Shown here: positions 7,919 to 14,403 of the stretch, in pieces
How positions within the stretch are numbered: position 1 is the stretch's first letter
How the letters are laid out: each line of letters begins with the position of its first letter
Assembly: GCA_943329845.2 (NCBI GenBank)
Contig: CALQFM020000036.1
Location: 1-38,180 of the forward strand
Source of the DNA: Candidatus Kuenenia stuttgartensis
GTDB taxonomy: Bacteria > Pseudomonadota > Alphaproteobacteria > SMXS01
DNA: 38,180 bases
Reading direction: 5' to 3'
Program-made: the position numbers and the translations under genes
Notes under the pieces: model-generated
Told to the model about the DNA's origin: nothing
The model's database searches: none
The model's input: the letters and a program-made list of their open reading frames with translations, nothing else

Positions 7919-7930
7919 GATTGCATACAA
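7919..7930. promoter_or_regulatory. Operator-like 12-mer upstream of hpxX
   Basis: GATTGCATACAA lies 81 bp before hpxX. The same 12 bases occur in reverse orientation at 11029-11040, in front of the second operon. The core TTGCATACAA is an imperfect palindrome with one mismatched pair. I infer a binding site of the GntR regulator encoded at 9995-10705. A TTGACA hexamer at 7947-7952 may be the -35 element of this operon, but no good -10 is visible. Confidence 0.5.
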
Positions 7931-8011
7931 TTCTTCATCCACCGGATTGACACGATCCGGCGGCGCGGGGGACAGTGGGCATCGTACCGCCACCATGTTC
8001 GACGGGAACCG

Positions 8012-8206
8012 ATGCCCCCAGAAATTTCCGAAGACGACGCGCTGACCGCGGTCGATGCCATGTCCCGGCTGATCGGCCTGCCGATTCTTCCCGGACATCG
8101 CGCCGGCGTGGCGCTCAATCTCGCCCGGCTGATGGTGCAGGCCCGGCTGGTCCAGTCGGTCGTGCTGCCCGAGGAAACCGAGCCGGCATCCGTCTTCACG
8201 CCATGA
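8012..8206 (+). CDS. hpxX: HpxX/AtzG-like small subunit (DUF4089)
   Basis: A 64-residue, mostly helical protein (SEDDALTAVDAMSRLIGLPI, HRAGVALNLARLM). It fits the AtzG/HpxX family, which is GatC-like and binds the amidase encoded next, stabilising it in an AtzE-AtzG complex. The hydrophobic pattern and the acidic C-terminus (LPEETEPASVFTP) recall GatC, which also ends near an LPEDxxPxxVF-type segment. Its stop overlaps the amidase start by 4 bp (ATGA 8203-8206), as expected for two subunits made in equal amounts. It is shorter than most annotated proteins and easily missed. The symbol follows the Klebsiella hpxXYZ naming. Confidence 0.85.
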   Translation: MPPEISEDDALTAVDAMSRLIGLPILPGHRAGVALNLARLMVQARLVQSVVLPEETEPASVFTP

Positions 8207-9600
8207 CAGATCCCGCCCGGCTCGACGCTTCCGCCATCGCCACGGCCGTCCGCAACCGCCGCATGAGCGCCGAAACCGTTGTGCGCGCGGCGCTGGAGGC
8301 GATCGAACGGCGCAACCCGGCGCTGAACTGCTTCACCGACGTCCTGCGCGACCGGGCGCTCGAAGCCGCCGCCTCGGTCGATGACCGACTGAGCGCCGGC
8401 GGTGATCCCGGACCGCTCGCCGGCGTGCCGTTCGGCGTGAAGAACCTGTTCGACGTGCGCGGGTTGCCGACCCTGGCGGGCTCCAAAATCAACCGGGACC
8501 TGCCGCCTGCGCGCGCCGATGCCGTACTGGTCCGACGGCTGGAGGCGGCCGGCGCGGTGCTCGTCGGCACCCAGCACATGGACGAATATGCCTATGGCTT
8601 CACCACCGAGAACAGCCACTACGGCCCGGGCCGCAACCCGCACGACCTCGCGCGTGTGGCTGGCGGCTCGTCCGGCGGTTCCGCGGCGGCGGTAGCGGCG
8701 GGACTGGTGCCGCTCAGCCTCGCCTCGGACACCAACGGCTCGATCCGCGTGCCATCGTCGTTCTGCGGCATCTTCGGGCTGAAGCCCACTTACGGACGGT
8801 TGCCGCGCACCGCCAGCTTCCAGTTCGTCCACGACCTGGATCATCTGGGTCCCTTCGCCCGCACGGTGACCGACCTGGCGCTGTGCTACGACGCGCAGCA
8901 GGGACACGACGCGGGCGATCCCATGTGCGCCCGCCGCCCCGTCGAGCCTGCCCTGCCCCGCCTCGGCGAACCCATCGACGGCCTGCGGGTCTCGGTGCTC
9001 GACGGCTGGTTCAGGGACACGGCCGGCCCGCAGGCGCTGGACGCGGTGGCGACGGTCGCGCGGGCGCTGCAGGCCGGCCCGGACACCACCCTCGCCAACG
9101 CGGCCGAAGCGCGCGCCGCCGCGTTCTGCATCACCGCCGCCTCGGGCGCCGACCTGCACATGGAGAACCTGAAGAAACGTCAGGCCGACTTCGACCCCGC
9201 GGTGCGCGACCGGCTGCTGGCCGGCGCGCTGCTGCCGGCGTCGGTGCTTGTGCATGCCCACCGCCTGCGCCGCTGGTTCCGCGACCAGGTGGCCGAGGCG
9301 TTCCGGCACGCCGACATCCTGATCGCGCCGTCGACGCCCTGCCCGGCGCCGCTGATCGGCCAGCCGACCATCAGGCTCGGCGCCGAGGAGGTCCCGACCC
9401 GGCCCAATATCGGCGTCTATACCCAGCCCATCAGCTTCATCGGCCTCCCCGTCGTGGGGGTTCCGGTGCATGGAAGCGAGGCCCTGCCGATCGGCGTCCA
9501 GATCATCGCGCCGCCCTGGCAGGAACAACTGGCGCTGCGCGTCGCCGCTCATCTGGAGCGGATCGGCGTCGTCGGCGCACCGATCGCGGAGGCCCCATGA
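8203..9600 (+). CDS. atzE: AtzE-family amidohydrolase (amidase signature enzyme)
   Basis: A 465-residue amidase-signature hydrolase. By comparison with GatA the Ser-cisSer-Lys triad is K80 (GVPFGVKNLF), S156 (GGSSGGSA) and S180 (SDTNGSIRVP). The whole run GVPFGVKNLFDV, then AGSKINRDLPPARADAVLV, then QHMDEYAYGFTTENSHYGPG is typical of the AtzE family. Characterised AtzE hydrolyses 1-carboxybiuret in cyanuric acid breakdown; the related hpxY gene sits in hpxWXYZ purine/oxalurate operons. No AtzD, AtzF or HpxW is visible here, so the true substrate is open, but a carbamoyl- or carboxy-urea compound is likely. It is coupled by ATGA overlaps to hpxX upstream and hpxZ downstream. Confidence 0.92.
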   Translation: MTDPARLDASAIATAVRNRRMSAETVVRAALEAIERRNPALNCFTDVLRDRALEAAASVDDRLSAGGDPGPLAGVPFGVKNLFDVRGLPTLAGSKINRDLPPARADAVLVRRLEAAGAVLVGTQHMDEYAYGFTTENSHYGPGRNPHDLARVAGGSSGGSAAAVAAGLVPLSLASDTNGSIRVPSSFCGIFGLKPTYGRLPRTASFQFVHDLDHLGPFARTVTDLALCYDAQQGHDAGDPMCARRPVEPALPRLGEPIDGLRVSVLDGWFRDTAGPQALDAVATVARALQAGPDTTLANAAEARAAAFCITAASGADLHMENLKKRQADFDPAVRDRLLAGALLPASVLVHAHRLRRWFRDQVAEAFRHADILIAPSTPCPAPLIGQPTIRLGAEEVPTRPNIGVYTQPISFIGLPVVGVPVHGSEALPIGVQIIAPPWQEQLALRVAAHLERIGVVGAPIAEAP

Positions 9601-9998
9601 CGATGACAGCCACGCTGACCGTGAACGACCCCGAGGTCGTCGCCGAAGTGACCGCCATGTTCCGGCGCTACGAGCAGGCGCTGATGGACAACGACACCGA
9701 CGCGCTGACCGGCATGTTCTGGCGGTCGCCGGAGACGCTGCGCTACGGCGTCGGCGAAATCCTGTACGGCTACGACGCCATCGCCAGTTTCCGGGCCAAC
9801 CGCCAGGGCGGCGCGCCCAAGCGCAGCCTGGGCAAGACCTGCATCACCACCTTCGGCCGTGACTACGGCATCGCCAACACCGAGTTCCAGCGGGTCAACA
9901 CCGACAAGGTGGGCCGGCAGAGCCAGACCTGGGTGCGCTTTGCGGAAGGCTGGCGGATCGTCGCCGCCCACGTCTCGCTGCAGGGCGACGCCAGCTAG
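9597..9998 (+). CDS. hpxZ: HpxZ/AtzH-like protein (DUF3225, NTF2-like fold)
   Basis: A 133-residue cone-shaped NTF2/SnoaL-like protein: helix EVVAEVTAMFRRYEQALMDND, split here as EVVAEVTAMFRRY and EQALMDND, then ETLRYGVGEILYGYDAI and a C-terminal sheet QTWVRFAEGWRIVAAHVSLQ. It belongs to the HpxZ/AtzH family; AtzH has been described as decarboxylating urea-1,3-dicarboxylate to allophanate downstream of AtzE. That makes a consecutive role after the amidase plausible. The start ATG 9597 overlaps the amidase stop (ATGA). Its TAG shares the four bases CTAG (9995-9998) with the stop codon of the convergent GntR gene. Confidence 0.87.
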   Translation: MTMTATLTVNDPEVVAEVTAMFRRYEQALMDNDTDALTGMFWRSPETLRYGVGEILYGYDAIASFRANRQGGAPKRSLGKTCITTFGRDYGIANTEFQRVNTDKVGRQSQTWVRFAEGWRIVAAHVSLQGDAS

Positions 9999-10705
9999 TA
10001 CCTGAAGCGCCAGGACGTTTCGCCGGCGATGCGCAGGTGCTCGCGCATGGCTTCGGCGGCCTCGTCCGGGTCACCGGCGACGATCGCCTCGACCACGCGG
10101 GCGTGTTCCTCGAACGACGCGCTCAGGCGACCGTCAGCCGCGAGACGCGACTGACGGTAAGGGGCAAGGCGCTGGCGCAGGGTGACGACCAGCGCGACGA
10201 GTTCCTGGTTGAGCGCGCCGGCCCAGATCAGTTCATGCAGGTCGCCATTCACCGCCTCGAAGCCGGGCCGGTCGTCGGCGGGCACCACCTCGAGCACCCT
10301 CAGATGCGCCTGCATCAGCCGCTTCTTGTCCTTGACCGGCATGCGCTGGGCGGCGAGACGCGCGCAGGCGGCCTCCAGTTCGACCAGGGTCTCGAACAGC
10401 GCGGCGATGCGCTCACTCGGCATGGCCGCCACGACGACGCCGCGGTTGGGCCGCCGCTGCACCAGCCCGACGATCTCGAGCTGCCGCAGCGCTTCGCGGA
10501 TCGGGGTGCGCGACACGCCGTAGCGTTCCGCCAAGCCGGCCTCCTCCAGGCGGACGCCGGGCAGCAGGCGGCGCTCGACGATCTCGGCGGTGAGCCGCTG
10601 GATCAGATCGGCCACGGTCGAGCCGCGCGCGGCCTGCACACTCTCGTCGCGCCCGTTCGCCGCCCGTTGTTTGCCCATGGTCTTGTTAACCCGCTGACTG
10701 GTCAT
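9995..10705 (-). CDS. GntR-family transcriptional regulator, FCD subfamily
   Basis: A 236-residue repressor/activator with an N-terminal winged helix-turn-helix (EEAGLAERYGVSRTPIREAL, about 52-72) and an all-helical FCD ligand-binding domain (ALFETLVELEAACARLAA, then the metal-site region NGDLHELIW and EHARVVEAIVAGD). FCD regulators normally sense small carboxylates and control adjacent catabolic genes. It lies between the hpx/atz operon, with which it converges, and the barrel-hydrolase-permease operon, from which it diverges, so it is the natural regulator of both. ATG 10705 is used; ATG 10678 (MGKQ) is an alternative since neither has a strong ribosome-binding site. A TACAAT hexamer on this strand (10743-10738) could be its -10. 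Confidence 0.92.
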   Translation of the reverse strand: MTSQRVNKTMGKQRAANGRDESVQAARGSTVADLIQRLTAEIVERRLLPGVRLEEAGLAERYGVSRTPIREALRQLEIVGLVQRRPNRGVVVAAMPSERIAALFETLVELEAACARLAAQRMPVKDKKRLMQAHLRVLEVVPADDRPGFEAVNGDLHELIWAGALNQELVALVVTLRQRLAPYRQSRLAADGRLSASFEEHARVVEAIVAGDPDEAAEAMREHLRIAGETSWRFRY

Positions 10706-11131
10706 GCGTTTGGCTGCTCAGCCATTCTCCCCAATTCATTGTACCGTTAAGGCCGCACAGTTGGTAGTGCCCGCGAGCGGTGTCCGGCCCTGGCCCGAGA
10801 CAGCACCTGCCCATTTTCCGCGCAATATTCGCACATGCACAAAAGTCGGGCATGCTTGCCGCGTTTGTTGCCAGCCTCCCGGCTAAACCATCGGTTTTCC
10901 TAGAGTTCAATGCAGCATTGCGTCCGTCGCATTGCAACAAATCCTCAATCATCAAATGCGCTTGTCACGCGCGATCGGCTTCCAGACGGCCTTCACGCCG
11001 AACTGGCACACTGCTTGATTATACAATTTTGTATGCAATCTTGTGTCCTATATTGCATGCGAATTAGGCGGATCGGCGACTCGGACGGCCGGCGCGGTGC
11101 CGGGCCTCCCAACAGTGCAGGAGATGACCGA
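10706..11131. other. Divergent intergenic region, gntR to barrel-protein operon
   Basis: 426 bases without a credible gene. The left part holds the gntR leader. A short palindrome CAATGC-A-GCATTG is at 10908-10920 and GCATTG recurs at 10929-10934. The right part is AT-richer and holds the dyads described for 11021-11058. AGGAGA at 11119-11124 is the ribosome-binding site for the gene at 11132. Confidence 0.7.
11021..11058. promoter_or_regulatory. Nested operator-like dyads before the barrel-hydrolase-permease operon
   Basis: ATACAA-TT-TTGTAT (11021-11034) is a perfect 6-bp dyad. TTGTATGCAATC (11029-11040) is the reverse complement of the 12-mer at 7919-7930. ATGCAAT (11033-11039) and ATTGCAT (11052-11058) form a second dyad with a 12-bp spacer. 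TATATT (11049-11054) is a good -10 hexamer, which would put the dyads over the -35 and spacer region, a repressor-like arrangement. I infer the regulator to be the adjacent GntR protein. Confidence 0.5.
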
Positions 11132-12004
11132 ATGAACAGATGGCTGGCGGGTTTCATGGTGGCTCTGGCGATGATGACGGGCTCGACCGCGGCGCGGGCC
11201 GACGGGCTGGATATTCATGGTTTCCTCGATGTATCGGTGAAGAACGCCTACATCACCCCGCGCGGCCTCATGGTGTTCAATGACGGCGTCACCATCCAGG
11301 TGCTGAACGGTCTGGTCCTCGGACTCCACAATGCGCCGGAGGAGACACTCAGCGGCGTATCCATGGTGTTCGGCACCTGGAGCGATATCGCCACCGAGCA
11401 GCACGATCCCAGCGTCGGCGCGTTCAACGAGTTCGACTGGTTCGTCGGCGTCAACTTCCAGCTCGCCAAGCGCTGGACGCTGGGCGCGCAATATGTCGAA
11501 TTCATCAGCCCGCCCAACAACTTCAAGACCGAGCGAAATCTCGAGTTCTCGCTGAACTACGACGATGCCGTCAAAGACCGCTCCTGGTCGATCCAGCCCT
11601 ATGTGAAATTCTTCTGGGCCATCTCGGGCGATTCCACCGTCGTCACGGGCAAGCCCGGCGACACCTTCGATGTCGAGATCGGCCTGAAGCCGAACATCGC
11701 CTTCAACATGTTCGGCGCCACCGCCAATCTCAGCGCGCCGACCTGGATCACGGTGGGCCCCAAATCCTACTGGGGCGGCACCGAGAATGTCGGCGTGTTG
11801 AGCACCGGCCTGAGCCTGAAGCTGCCGCTGACCTTCATCCCGCAGCGTCTGGGCAACTGGTACACCGCCATTGGCGTCCAGTACTACGCCTTCCTCAACG
11901 ACCAGCTCCGTGTCGCGCAGACGCTGATCGGCACCGCCGACCCGCTGAGCGACGGTCACAAGGATTACGTGGTCGGCTCCTTCAGCATCGGCATGGGGTT
12001 CTGA
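11132..12004 (+). CDS. Putative outer-membrane beta-barrel protein
   Basis: A 290-residue exported protein. Residues 1-24 form a signal peptide (MNRWLAGFMVALAMMTG, cleavage after ARA). The mature part consists of alternating amphipathic strands (FDWFVGVNFQLAKRWTLGAQ, RSWSIQPYVKFFWAIS, WYTAIGVQYYAFLN) and ends in SFSIGMGF with a terminal phenylalanine, the usual outer-membrane assembly signal. I do not recognise a named porin family. As first gene of an operon with a cysteine hydrolase and a permease, it plausibly gives the substrate a route across the outer membrane. AGGAGA (11119-11124) precedes the start. Confidence 0.8.
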   Translation: MNRWLAGFMVALAMMTGSTAARADGLDIHGFLDVSVKNAYITPRGLMVFNDGVTIQVLNGLVLGLHNAPEETLSGVSMVFGTWSDIATEQHDPSVGAFNEFDWFVGVNFQLAKRWTLGAQYVEFISPPNNFKTERNLEFSLNYDDAVKDRSWSIQPYVKFFWAISGDSTVVTGKPGDTFDVEIGLKPNIAFNMFGATANLSAPTWITVGPKSYWGGTENVGVLSTGLSLKLPLTFIPQRLGNWYTAIGVQYYAFLNDQLRVAQTLIGTADPLSDGHKDYVVGSFSIGMGF

Positions 12005-12093
12005 CCATGCGGCGCGAAAATTGCAGAGACCCTTCTGATGAGGCGGCGGCGCCGGTCGCCGCTTCCCACAGCCCCCGGACAGGAGGAGAGCCC

Positions 12094-12756
12094 ATGTTGA
12101 GCATCGACGCGGATCCCTATGACTTCGAGTTCGACCCGGAGACCACGGCGCTGGTGATCATCGACATGCAGCGCGACTTCCTGGAGCCGGGCGGCTTCGG
12201 CGAGGCGCTGGGCAATGACGTGTCGCTGCTGCGCCGGACCATCGAGCCCACCAAGGCGCTGCTGGCGGCGTTCCGCGCCGCCGGCATGATGGTGATCCAC
12301 ACCCGCGAAGGCCACGAGCCGGAACTCAGCGACCTGACGCCCGCCAAGAAGCGCCGCGGACGGTTCCCGGTCACCATCGGCGACGCAGGGCCGATGGGCC
12401 GCATCCTGGTCCACGGCGAGACCGGCCACGACATCATCCCCGAGCTCTACCCCATCGACGGCGAGCCGGTAATCGACAAGCCCGGCAAGGGCGCGTTCCA
12501 CGCCACCGACCTGGAAGACATCCTGCGCAACTGGGGCATGGAAAAGCTCGTCGTCTGCGGCGTCACCACCGAGGTGTGTGTCCACACCACGGTACGCGAG
12601 GCCAACGACCGTGGTTTCGACTGCCTGGTCGTCGAGGACTGCTGCGGCTCGTACTTCCCCGAATTCCAGGAAATGGGCCTCCGCATGATCAAGGCGCAAG
12701 GCGGCATCTTCGGCTGGGTGGCGAGTTCGCCCGCCGTCATCGCCGCCATCGCCTGA
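12094..12756 (+). CDS. Isochorismatase-fold cysteine hydrolase, biuret-hydrolase-like
   Basis: A 220-residue cysteine hydrolase of the isochorismatase superfamily. The expected Asp-Lys-Cys triad is D24 (LVIIDMQRDF), K129 (VIDKPGKGAF) and C162 (GVTTEVCVHTT). Segments such as IDADPY at the start, HTREGHEPELSDL, DIIPELYPIDGE and REANDRGFDCLVVEDCCG closely resemble biuret hydrolase BiuH, which cleaves biuret to allophanate and ammonia. Ureidoacrylate and N-carbamoyl-type amidases are related alternatives. It starts at ATG 12094 behind the strong site AGGAGGAG. It lies between the barrel-protein and permease genes in one operon. The family call is firm; biuret as substrate is inference. Confidence 0.85.
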   Translation: MLSIDADPYDFEFDPETTALVIIDMQRDFLEPGGFGEALGNDVSLLRRTIEPTKALLAAFRAAGMMVIHTREGHEPELSDLTPAKKRRGRFPVTIGDAGPMGRILVHGETGHDIIPELYPIDGEPVIDKPGKGAFHATDLEDILRNWGMEKLVVCGVTTEVCVHTTVREANDRGFDCLVVEDCCGSYFPEFQEMGLRMIKAQGGIFGWVASSPAVIAAIA

Positions 12757-12785
12757 CCCCGTTTCAAGCAAGAAGGAGAGGGAAC

Positions 12786-14342
12786 ATGTCTACGACGACC
12801 ATGGGAGCCGGCTACACGCCGAAATGGTGGGTATCGGGCGACTGGAACGGCTTCTTCGGGCTGTTCACCAACGTTGTGCTGAACGTCATCGTGCTGACCG
12901 GCCTGTGCCTGGGCGTGGTGAAGCTGCCCGAGGATATCGTGTTCGGCCGCATCCTGCCGGCGCTGGGCATCGCGCTGCCGATCGGCAACCTGTTCTATGC
13001 GTACCTGGCCTACAAGCTGGCGCAGCGGACGGGCCGCACCGACGTGACCGCCCTGCCCTATGGGCCCAGCGTGCCGCACATGTTCATCGTCGTGTTCCTG
13101 ATCATGCTGCCGGTCTACCTGAAGACGGGCGACCCAATCCTGGCCTGGGAAGCTGGCCTGGCCTGGGCGTTCGTCATCGGCCTGATCGTGCTGCTGGGCG
13201 CCTTCGTCGGCCCGGCGGTGCGCAAGTGGACGCCGCGCGCGGCCATGCTGGGGACGCTCGCCGGCATCTCCATCGCCTTCATCTCGATGCGGCCCGCCTT
13301 CCAGACCTGGGAGACGCCGTGGCTGGGCTTCCTGACCCTGGCGATCATCCTGGGCTGCTGGACGGCCAACGTGAAGCTGCCGCTCAATTCGCCGGCCGGC
13401 CTGGTCGCCGTGGTGCTGGGCACCATGCTGGCCTGGATCGCGACCGCCTCTGGTGTGCAGTCGATCATGGATCCGGCGGCCGTCGGCGCGTCGCTGTCCC
13501 AGTTCAGCATTCACCCGCCGATACCCTCGGGCGCCTTCCTGACCGGTCTGTCTGACATCGGGCCGCTGCTGGTGACCGCCGTGCCGCTCGGCATCTACAA
13601 CTTCACCGAGGGCATGAACAACGTGGAGAGTGCCTCGGCCGCGGGCGACGACTACGATCTGCGCAAGGTGCTGGTCGCCGACGGCCTCGGCGCCATGGTC
13701 GGCGCCGCGCTGGGCAGCCCGTTTCCGCCCGCCGTCTATATCGGCCATCCCGGCTGGAAGGCGGTCGGCGGCCGCATCGGCTACTCGCTGGCCACCGGCA
13801 TCGTCATCGCCCTGGTCTGCTTCCTGGGCCTCACCGCGCTGTTGCTGGCGGTGGTGCCGCTGGTCGTGATCGTGCCGATCCTGCTCTATATCGGCCTGGT
13901 CATCGGCGCCCAGTCGTTCCAGGCGGTGCCGGCGGCGCACGCGCCCGCGGTGGTGCTCGCCATCCTGCCCAACATCGCCGCCTGGGCGCAGAACCAGATC
14001 GACGGCGCGCTCAACGCCGCCGGCACCACCGCGGCGGCGGTCGGCATGGACAAGCTGGCGGGCGCGGGCGTGATCTACCACGGCATGGAGTTGCTGGGCG
14101 GCGGCGCGGTGCTGGCCGGAATGGTGCTGGGCGCCATCGCCGCCTTCATCATCGACCGCAAATTCATTCATGCCGCCTGCTACTCGCTGGCGGGCGCGGT
14201 GCTGGCGTTCTTCGGCTTCATCAACGGCACGGCGCTGGGCTTCGGCAACTCGACACCGGTCGCCATCGGCTACCTGATGATGGCTCTGGTGTGCCTGGCC
14301 TTCCACTACATGCCCAAGGGAGAGGAAATCCCTCTCGAATAG
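12786..14342 (+). CDS. Multi-pass permease, xanthine/uracil (NCS2/AzgA)-like
   Basis: A 518-residue inner-membrane transporter with roughly 12-14 hydrophobic helices. It has GDWNGFFGLFTN near the N-terminus, then GNLFYAYLAYKLA, and the marker GRTDVTALPYGPSVPHMF, reminiscent of the TALP-x-G segment in nucleobase transporters. NFTEGMNNVESASAAGDDY lies mid-protein at the position of the substrate-site helix in that superfamily. It is the last gene of the operon: AAGGAG precedes the start and an intrinsic-terminator-like hairpin follows. From context it imports the compound attacked by the two hydrolases. Transporter class is fairly sure; substrate is not known. Confidence 0.75.
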   Translation: MSTTTMGAGYTPKWWVSGDWNGFFGLFTNVVLNVIVLTGLCLGVVKLPEDIVFGRILPALGIALPIGNLFYAYLAYKLAQRTGRTDVTALPYGPSVPHMFIVVFLIMLPVYLKTGDPILAWEAGLAWAFVIGLIVLLGAFVGPAVRKWTPRAAMLGTLAGISIAFISMRPAFQTWETPWLGFLTLAIILGCWTANVKLPLNSPAGLVAVVLGTMLAWIATASGVQSIMDPAAVGASLSQFSIHPPIPSGAFLTGLSDIGPLLVTAVPLGIYNFTEGMNNVESASAAGDDYDLRKVLVADGLGAMVGAALGSPFPPAVYIGHPGWKAVGGRIGYSLATGIVIALVCFLGLTALLLAVVPLVVIVPILLYIGLVIGAQSFQAVPAAHAPAVVLAILPNIAAWAQNQIDGALNAAGTTAAAVGMDKLAGAGVIYHGMELLGGGAVLAGMVLGAIAAFIIDRKFIHAACYSLAGAVLAFFGFINGTALGFGNSTPVAIGYLMMALVCLAFHYMPKGEEIPLE

Positions 14343-14355
14343 GTCATGGGGCGGG

Positions 14356-14403
14356 GTGCCCGGGTCGCGTCCTTCTCCCGCGCGGCCCGGGCACGCTTAT
14401 TTT
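14356..14403 (+). terminator. Rho-independent-type terminator after the permease operon
   Basis: GTGCCCGGG (14356-14364) pairs with CCCGGGCAC (14386-14394), 9 bp perfect, with inner GCG/CGC bases extending the stem. GCTTATTTT follows. It lies 14 bp after the permease stop. Confidence 0.65.

Follow-up and report, generated by a model that had tools for sequence, protein, structure and literature searches.

Triuret hydrolase activity was assigned in 2020 to TrtA of Herbaspirillum, where the chemistry was shown and the product was identified as carboxybiuret by 13C NMR; the route from triuret is described there as proceeding via TrtB and BiuH, and AtzEG is noted as acting on carboxybiuret in Pseudomonas ADP (PMC7948467). 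The AtzE-AtzG route is known from the cyanuric acid pathway of Pseudomonas ADP, in which AtzH likely converts the AtzE product to allophanate (PMC6219798). According to the same paper, atzG-atzE-atzH clusters are far commoner than the cyanuric acid pathway and mostly lack atzD or atzF, and just a general role in the catabolism of nitrogenous compounds is proposed for them. Gene sets of the trtA-trtB-biuH-atzF type are described for ammonia-oxidising bacteria, and trtA-biuH-atzF beside allFGHK for comammox bacteria (PMC12625717). Here we analyzed a stretch of 38,180 nt (contig CALQFM020000036.1, assembly GCA_943329845.2; "the window" hereafter), in which a cluster at 7,919-14,403 holds an atzG-atzE-atzH operon, a GntR-type regulator gene and a second operon encoding an outer-membrane barrel protein, a cysteine hydrolase and a permease. 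We consider it likely, with a probability of about 0.8, that both operons belong to a single triuret utilisation regulon under GntR control, whose TrtA-AtzEG-AtzH route would be a variation on the triuret pathway already described. In the literature covered (CC-licensed PMC papers, without supplements) neither a combination of TrtA with AtzE-AtzG-AtzH in one system nor a description of the permease family was found.

The cysteine hydrolase, an isochorismatase family protein (PF00857, 159 bits in Pfam), is central to this reading. In a PDB sequence search its nearest solved structures were 6xix/6xj4 (E=7e-82), with the Rhizobium BiuH entries behind (1e-73). The Herbaspirillum sp. BH-1 triuret hydrolase TrtA is represented by entries 6XIX, 6XJE and 6XJ4, and BiuH by 6AZO (PMC7948467). 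The alignment to TrtA 6xix is gap-free over 211 residues with 58.8% identity, compared to 54.2% identity over 216 residues for BiuH 6azo. According to PMC7948467, the catalytic triad consists of D24, K129 and C162, and TrtA and BiuH differ at F35, N41, A134, E160, Y187 and I205; Y, Y, S, D, T and V were taken as the BiuH-type residues at these six positions. The window hydrolase carries the TrtA residue at 6/6 and the BiuH residue at 0/6 of them. The triad, which the first-pass annotation had placed at the same positions, and the substrate residues F29, E72, K132 and Q202 are kept with identical numbering, and altogether 13/13 active-site and second-shell positions compared agree with TrtA. 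Furthermore, the BiuH equivalog model NF050097, the top NCBIfam match of the protein, scores 283.4 bits and thus stays below its cut-off of 370. Because of the six residues, the best solved relative and the missed cut-off, we conclude that the protein looks like a triuret hydrolase rather than a biuret hydrolase. Biuret as main substrate was rejected on the residue set and the missed model cut-off. The structure matches and residues place the enzyme within the TrtA/BiuH group and outside unrelated isochorismatase clades. Hence, the earlier description as BiuH-like holds at family level and fails in detail, and the suggestion that the substrate may be an undescribed one is not supported, triuret being the most likely substrate.

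The residue set also separates relatives. A further 42 homolog rows (41 distinct sequences) comprise 35 with the full TrtA set, one with the TrtA set but S134, and six with the full BiuH set. We kept 80 named TrtA loci from at least 574 relatives, with at least 20 kb of sequence at 52 of the 80, and called their neighbours by identity thresholds. The TrtAs of these loci show the full set in 71 cases, S134 in seven, Y35 in L083 and L205 in L088. Second, BiuH-like copies in the named TrtA loci (n=20) have the full BiuH set in 15 cases, A134 in three, I187 in one and an incomplete set in one. Within the named loci listed, the window TrtA is matched best by a Verrucomicrobium copy (L069, 77%), ahead of the alphaproteobacterial copies listed, which suggests transfer between phyla; better matches exist within the window's own class, in congeners (84-98%) and in the more distant genome G253 (78%). 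No TrtA relative was found in the viral contigs searched.

The atzG-atzE-atzH genes are assigned with family scores well beyond chance. AtzG matches the AtzG-like family PF13318 with 48.1 bits (cut-off 24) and the AtzG chain of PDB 6c62 with E=3.5e-4. AtzE reaches 701 bits with NF006631 (cut-off 461) and E=6.8e-143 with chain A of 6c62, a "Biuret hydrolase" solved with AtzG, which we take to be AtzE of Pseudomonas ADP. AtzH scores 185.6 bits with PF11533 (DUF3225, AtzH-like; cut-off 27) and 179 bits with the HpxZ model NF033625 (cut-off 135), and matches PDB AtzH 6bjt with E=4e-42. The window protein and all 41 aligned rows retain the equivalents of the catalytic AtzH residues Tyr22 and Arg46. 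In the close relative G007, the atzE homolog lies in two overlapping pieces (L049 3448-4636; 3448-4461 and 4424-4636), which is a frameshift or an assembly error.

We then asked which further genes of the pathway the genome holds, a 3.68 Mb draft of 107 contigs with a reported completeness of 100. No second PF00857 gene was found genome-wide; TrtA itself is the only one detected and no BiuH was found, and therefore the published TrtA-TrtB-BiuH route seems closed. Five amidase-family genes were detected, namely AtzE, one on contig C90 and three others (C47, C22, C41). The C90 gene encodes an allophanate hydrolase (AtzF; TIGR02713 810 bits, cut-off 511) and lies next to a urea carboxylase gene (TIGR02712), UAAP1/UAAP2 genes and a Guanidine-II riboswitch. 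The riboswitch match (L008 2300-2354) lies just before UAAP1-UAAP2-urea carboxylase-allophanate hydrolase and overlaps the terminal part of a frame resembling an ABC ATPase; in the window, an Rfam scan at gathering threshold gave no match. The C90 urea carboxylase and UAAP1/2 presumably correspond to guanidine carboxylase and CgdAB. Guanidine carboxylase, CgdAB and AtzF are described as a guanidine pathway (PMC9800807). A search for AtzD (PF09663) gave no match in the genome, a weak negative since none of the control genomes gave one either, and cyanuric acid as the carboxybiuret source was set aside with this same caveat. The locus contains no recognisable HpxW-family gene, and the only PF01019 (gamma-glutamyltransferase) gene found in the genome lies on contig C39, with just 26% identity to a GGT-like neighbour (named by eye) of an unlinked AtzE; an oxalurate/hpx operon thus finds no support. 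The first-pass annotation had noted the absence of AtzD, AtzF and HpxW from the stretch. For HpxW this agrees with the gene content of the locus, AtzD was not found in the whole genome either (with the weak control), and AtzF is indeed absent from the stretch but present in the genome. Because AtzF lies on another contig, among guanidine-pathway genes, and is likely the last enzyme, the proposal of a self-contained system was not quite right.

From these assignments the following route can be proposed. Triuret would pass the outer membrane through the barrel protein and would be brought into the cell by the permease. TrtA, as judged here from its residue signature, would hydrolyze triuret to 1-carboxybiuret and NH3, and AtzE-AtzG would deaminate 1-carboxybiuret to 1,3-dicarboxyurea early enough to forestall its decarboxylation to biuret. 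AtzH would then decarboxylate 1,3-dicarboxyurea to allophanate, which the C90 allophanate hydrolase, probably shared with guanidine degradation, would split into 2 NH3 and 2 CO2. Per triuret, one NH3 would stem from TrtA, one from AtzE-AtzG and two from AtzF, and one CO2 from AtzH and two from AtzF, giving a net reaction of triuret to 4 NH3 and 3 CO2. Since the TrtA product is the AtzE-AtzG substrate, AtzD, BiuH and HpxW are not needed.

The promoter regions connect the two operons. With up to two mismatches, ATTGYATRCAAT occurs three times in the window (7920, 11028 and 11052), in each case in one of the two promoter regions. The site at 7920, ATTGCATACAAT, is exact, and TTTGTATGCAAT and ATTGCATGCGAA differ from ATTGYATRCAAT by one and two mismatches. 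The 11-mer TTGYATRCAAT has four distinct sites in the 3.68 Mb genome, two of them at this locus, and its reversed pattern has none; a rough estimate from the base content of the window gives about 0.8 matches by chance. In the congeners G007 and G004 sites are kept before both the atzG and the trtA operon, and the exact 10-mer stands at the equivalent place of the trtA operon in G007, G004 and Novosphingobium L148. G006 has only one-mismatch sites, before the barrel gene, one-mismatch sites only were also seen in L018, L020, L050 and L053, and the contig of G002 (L052), which ends inside the barrel gene, has no site. The 80 named loci contain 19 copies of the exact 10-mer in 1.46 Mb, distributed over 14 loci and all on the upstream side of TrtA, with 0 copies of the reversed control; eight copies in seven loci lie at most 1.5 kb from TrtA. 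In Nevskia (L084) one site is found directly before AtzF and another before the barrel gene. We conclude that both operons carry a common putative operator. Its binder is presumably the FCD-type GntR protein (PF07729 86.7 bits, PF00392 63 bits in Pfam), which would probably repress both operons via TTGYATRCAA sites until triuret or a product is present. The other two 11-mer sites of the genome (C2:58258 and C107:1260; L149 5259 and L150 1260) show no visible ureide link, with an oxidoreductase and farther cytochrome P450-like genes at one and a small exported-looking protein just downstream of the other, as judged by eye.

Comparison of gene neighbourhoods revealed that TrtA and AtzE meet repeatedly. 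AtzE was found near TrtA in 8/80 named loci, together with AtzH in all eight and AtzF in six. These belong to Acidobacteriia (L083), Acetobacteraceae (L088), Opitutaceae/Opitutae (L098, L117, L132), Acidocella (L120), Chelatococcus (L147) and Novosphingobium (L148). Hence, linkage of TrtA, AtzE and AtzH is seen repeatedly, in members of Alphaproteobacteria, Acidobacteria and Verrucomicrobiota. The short AtzG was detected by tblastn in only one of the eight (L120). Terrarubrum flagellatum has a single-strand row of ABC transporter genes-trtA-permease-atzF-atzG-atzE-hpxZ, in which the permease, annotated as "regulator", is 53% identical to the window permease, and Novosphingobium flavum (L148) shows the order barrel-TrtA-permease-AtzE-AtzH. 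BiuH-like genes occur in 20/80 named loci. AtzH without AtzE occurs in eight, with BiuH in all of them (L077, L084, L085, L094, L111, L126, L131, L145). The AtzHs of these eight loci keep Tyr22 and Arg46 and form one weakly supported tree group (63/69); their role may be the decarboxylation of carboxybiuret, which would give biuret. FdrA, DUF1116 or carbamate kinase, singly or together, are found in 12/80 loci.

We also sampled 385 genomes of the class, scoring up to four AtzE and up to seven TrtA candidates per genome and counting matches to the TrtA/BiuH group at E<=1e-40, which includes BiuH-only genomes. AtzE exceeded its cut-off in 31 genomes, a TrtA/BiuH-group gene was present in 51 and both in 22 (odds ratio 27, p=4e-15, uncorrected for kinship and genome size). 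The two genes lie within about 10 kb in 9/22 (G000, G004, G007, G050, G059, G090, G176, G272, G353) and not in the other 13. In a sample of 10 genomes from the family, five have TrtA, three of these have AtzE over cut-off, and in a further TrtA-bearing genome (G006) the contig end falls inside AtzE; AtzE over cut-off was found in 0/5 family genomes without TrtA. AtzF is over cut-off in 8/10, including the TrtA-less G003, G005 and G001. A congener with an 84% complete genome (G002, L052) carries barrel-TrtA-permease and, next on the same strand, a BiuH-type copy; a search for AtzE gave nothing over cut-off in it. G253 (L053) has the same barrel-TrtA-permease row with the BiuH-type copy encoded in the opposite direction, and its AtzE copies lie on different contigs. 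These two genomes appear to represent a natural swap of the downstream module, and its form without AtzE in G002 is what a branch point at carboxybiuret would predict. Taken together, the genes of the two operons co-occur in the named loci as well as in the class and family samples and share a putative operator at this locus, in line with the first-pass proposal that the block is a ureide uptake and degradation system.

Permease homologs accompany TrtA in 65/80 named loci, 64 of them within 500 bases and one at 529. Pfam gave no family for the window permease at E<=0.001 and none below E=0.04 in 30 members; the best NCBIfam match in this set was a mechanosensitive channel model (E=0.004, 2/30 members), and a profile of the permease retrieved nothing among PDB chains up to E=1. 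The AlphaFold2 model (pLDDT 87) matches UraA 5xls with Z 27.3 over 365 residues at 3.9 A, and SLC4/SLC23/SLC26 relatives match as well. It contains short strands at residues 92-94 and 315-317, such as are carried by the broken helices of UraA. The window permease is therefore predicted to have a UraA-like fold, and from its position in the operon we predict that it imports triuret. An earlier assignment as NCS2/AzgA-like agrees with the predicted fold and finds no sequence match to the family models. The barrel protein has no Pfam family at E<=0.001, and its homologs precede TrtA in 4/80 named loci. Its model (pLDDT 75, 5-sequence alignment) shows an N-terminal helix (5-22) followed by barrel strands and matches many kinds of barrels, including KdgM, NanC and Tsx, with an autotransporter translocator as the best (Z 18.1). 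Because it resembles outer-membrane barrels in general, the substrate cannot be read from the fold; position and operon suggest that it may carry triuret.

All seven genes that the first-pass annotation named are intact open frames, and atzG, atzE and atzH successively overlap by a few bases.

Features of the putative triuret utilisation cluster (positions in the window)
Feature	Position	Strand	Remark
Operator ATTGCATACAAT	7920..7931	.	upstream of atzG; exact match
atzG	8012..8206	+	putative small subunit of 1-carboxybiuret hydrolase; overlaps atzE start
atzE	8203..9600	+	putative 1-carboxybiuret amidohydrolase
atzH/hpxZ	9597..9998	+	putative decarboxylase of 1,3-dicarboxyurea
FCD-type GntR regulator	9995..10705	-	convergent with atzGEH, divergent from trtA operon
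trtA operon operator region	11028..11063	.	TTTGTATGCAAT and ATTGCATGCGAA
Outer-membrane barrel protein, candidate ureide channel	11132..12004	+	
Cysteine hydrolase trtA, triuret hydrolase by residue signature	12094..12756	+	
UraA-fold permease, candidate triuret importer	12786..14342	+	

Several observations weigh against a single triuret regulon with the proposed route. Carboxybiuret decarboxylates by itself with a half-life of about 20 min (PMC7948467), and biuret arising from it could not be processed further in the absence of BiuH. No operator with up to one mismatch was found in the available sequence of the C90 contig around AtzF, which has the guanidine riboswitch, and the last step is thus not visibly co-regulated. 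In shuffled versions of the window, 1.22 copies of the operator pattern are expected and three or more occur in 13/100 shuffles; the count in the window alone is not rare and we therefore place weight on the whole-genome count. Moreover, 66/80 named loci lack the exact 10-mer, and the operator is not general. None of AtzE, AtzH, AtzF, BiuH and AllFGHK is found in the available flanks of 42/80 TrtA loci, so that the pairing of TrtA with AtzE is confined to a minority of loci. Of the eight named TrtAs linked to AtzE, two (L083, L088) deviate from the TrtA set by one position each, and in G059 and G353 TrtA has both AtzE and a BiuH-like gene close by. No named locus has both (0/80), a result with a chance probability of 0.09; for this reason and because of these two genomes, mutual exclusion of AtzE and BiuH near TrtA was dropped as a claim. 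Finally, TrtA-linked and unlinked AtzEs interleave in a tree without characterised HpxY. The 18 TrtA-linked rows require 10 changes, at least five of them forced by well-supported branches, compared to a mean of 12.6 for shuffled labels (10 or fewer in 54/500 shuffles), so the label is only weakly clustered, and 13/19 "unlinked" rows come from genomes with a TrtA/BiuH-group gene elsewhere. The groups did not separate, and AtzE sequence alone therefore cannot tell carboxybiuret from oxalurate hydrolases. In favour of the proposed regulon, on the other hand, the TrtA-linked AtzEs are scattered, so the linkage is not one inherited block and was formed or lost several times.

In an alternative reading the hydrolase acts on biuret, or as a generalist on biuret and triuret, next to a separate AtzE-AtzG-AtzH system for oxalurate (hpx-like) or another ureide. 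The rank of the BiuH model (283 bits) would fit this, as would the AtzH score above the cut-off of an HpxZ model labelled "oxalurate catabolism" and the close relation of hpxY-type amidases to AtzE (PMC12625717). We consider it unlikely, however, given that the BiuH cut-off is missed and the six separating residues are TrtA-type, with the BiuH set borne by six neighbouring copies elsewhere. Moreover, the locus has no recognised gene of the HpxW family and the sole gamma-glutamyltransferase gene found is on another contig, and two separate systems would not fit the AtzE-TrtA linkage in three phyla or the operator common to both operons here. The substrate of the TrtA-like hydrolase could also be another ureide such as guanylurea, feeding the guanidine pathway of this genome. 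The riboswitch-associated C90 genes are in place for this, and guanylurea hydrolases belong to the same family, in which their identity to other members can be as high as 65% (PMC9800807). Still, 13/13 positions are TrtA-like (in a comparison that holds no guanylurea hydrolase sequence), AtzGEH has no place in a route from guanylurea to guanidine, the C90 contig lacks the operator and AtzF is retained in TrtA-less congeners, which together render this explanation highly improbable. That the operons are independent and AtzGEH serves carboxybiuret from cyanuric acid, the known atzDGEHF context (PMC6219798), via an AtzD missing from the 107-contig draft and from a search without positive control, is scarcely credible in view of the reported completeness of 100, the common operator and the repeated TrtA-AtzE linkage, and AtzD is unnecessary because TrtA yields the same product, carboxybiuret.

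TrtA also occurs in a different gene context. An Escherichia coli plasmid (L021, NZ_CP019909, 5983-12609) and the chromosome of E. coli C7 (L172, 9001-16214) each encode a protein that has the complete set of TrtA residues; the plasmid copy is 67% identical to the window TrtA. In both records TrtA is followed by DUF2877, FdrA, DUF1116, carbamate kinase, a small protein and a cytosine permease. The small protein aligns to AtzF residues 475-596 and is annotated in L172 as "allophanate hydrolase-related". A short stretch that aligns with the last fifth to quarter of AtzF (about residues 450-600) is likewise present in L080, L081, L090, L102, L139, L143 and L144, that is, in 7/12 named loci with FdrA/DUF1116/carbamate kinase-type genes near TrtA. 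The TrtA-like gene on its own has DNA matches in 1547/5426 E. coli genomes (1489 chromosomal and 124 plasmid places), and the whole FdrA-type cluster was seen in the L021 and L172 records only. This cluster may be a third triuret route yielding carbamoyl phosphate and ATP.

For the TrtA-linked subset of atzG-atzE-atzH clusters that lack atzD a candidate substrate source can now be named, because TrtA supplies the carboxybiuret that AtzE needs. The locus furthermore offers candidate triuret transporters, a permease family without Pfam match and a barrel protein, together with an operator from which part of the regulon can be predicted. Triuret, a small compound related to urea and rich in nitrogen, is present as an impurity in fertilisers and forms when urate is oxidised (PMC7948467); the pathway is thus relevant to nitrogen in soil and, more generally, to nitrogen from urate. 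We put forward only tentatively, and with some doubt, that atzG-atzE-atzH evolved for triuret or another natural carboxybiuret source (e.g. oxidised urate), that atzDGEHF arose later by AtzD replacing TrtA, and that the UraA-fold protein founds a triuret-importer family beside TrtA across several phyla.

Compared to UraA and the NCS2 (SLC23) transporters, the permease is alike in its predicted fold, but no convincing sequence match was obtained in Pfam, NCBIfam or PDB with the single sequence, the 30-member set or the profile. The hpx purine/oxalurate operon (PMC12625717) consists of hpxWXYZ. AtzG/HpxX, AtzE/HpxY and AtzH/HpxZ are homologous, whereas no hpxW or purine genes were recognised in the window locus and TrtA is present. 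With the TrtA-TrtB-BiuH-AtzF pathway of Herbaspirillum sp. BH-1 and Rhizobium (PMC7948467) the system shares the TrtA signature and, as proposed, the carboxybiuret intermediate and AtzF as last enzyme. It differs in that no BiuH was found in the genome and AtzE-AtzG followed by AtzH would take the place of the step through biuret; in addition, genes for an outer-membrane barrel and for a permease of predicted UraA fold are part of the operon, and AtzF lies elsewhere. With atzDGEHF of Pseudomonas sp. ADP (PMC6219798) it shares the identical atzG-atzE-atzH order and the catalytic residues of AtzH. In contrast to that operon, no atzD was found in the genome and atzF is not adjacent, and carboxybiuret would be derived from triuret via TrtA instead of from the opening of the cyanuric acid ring.

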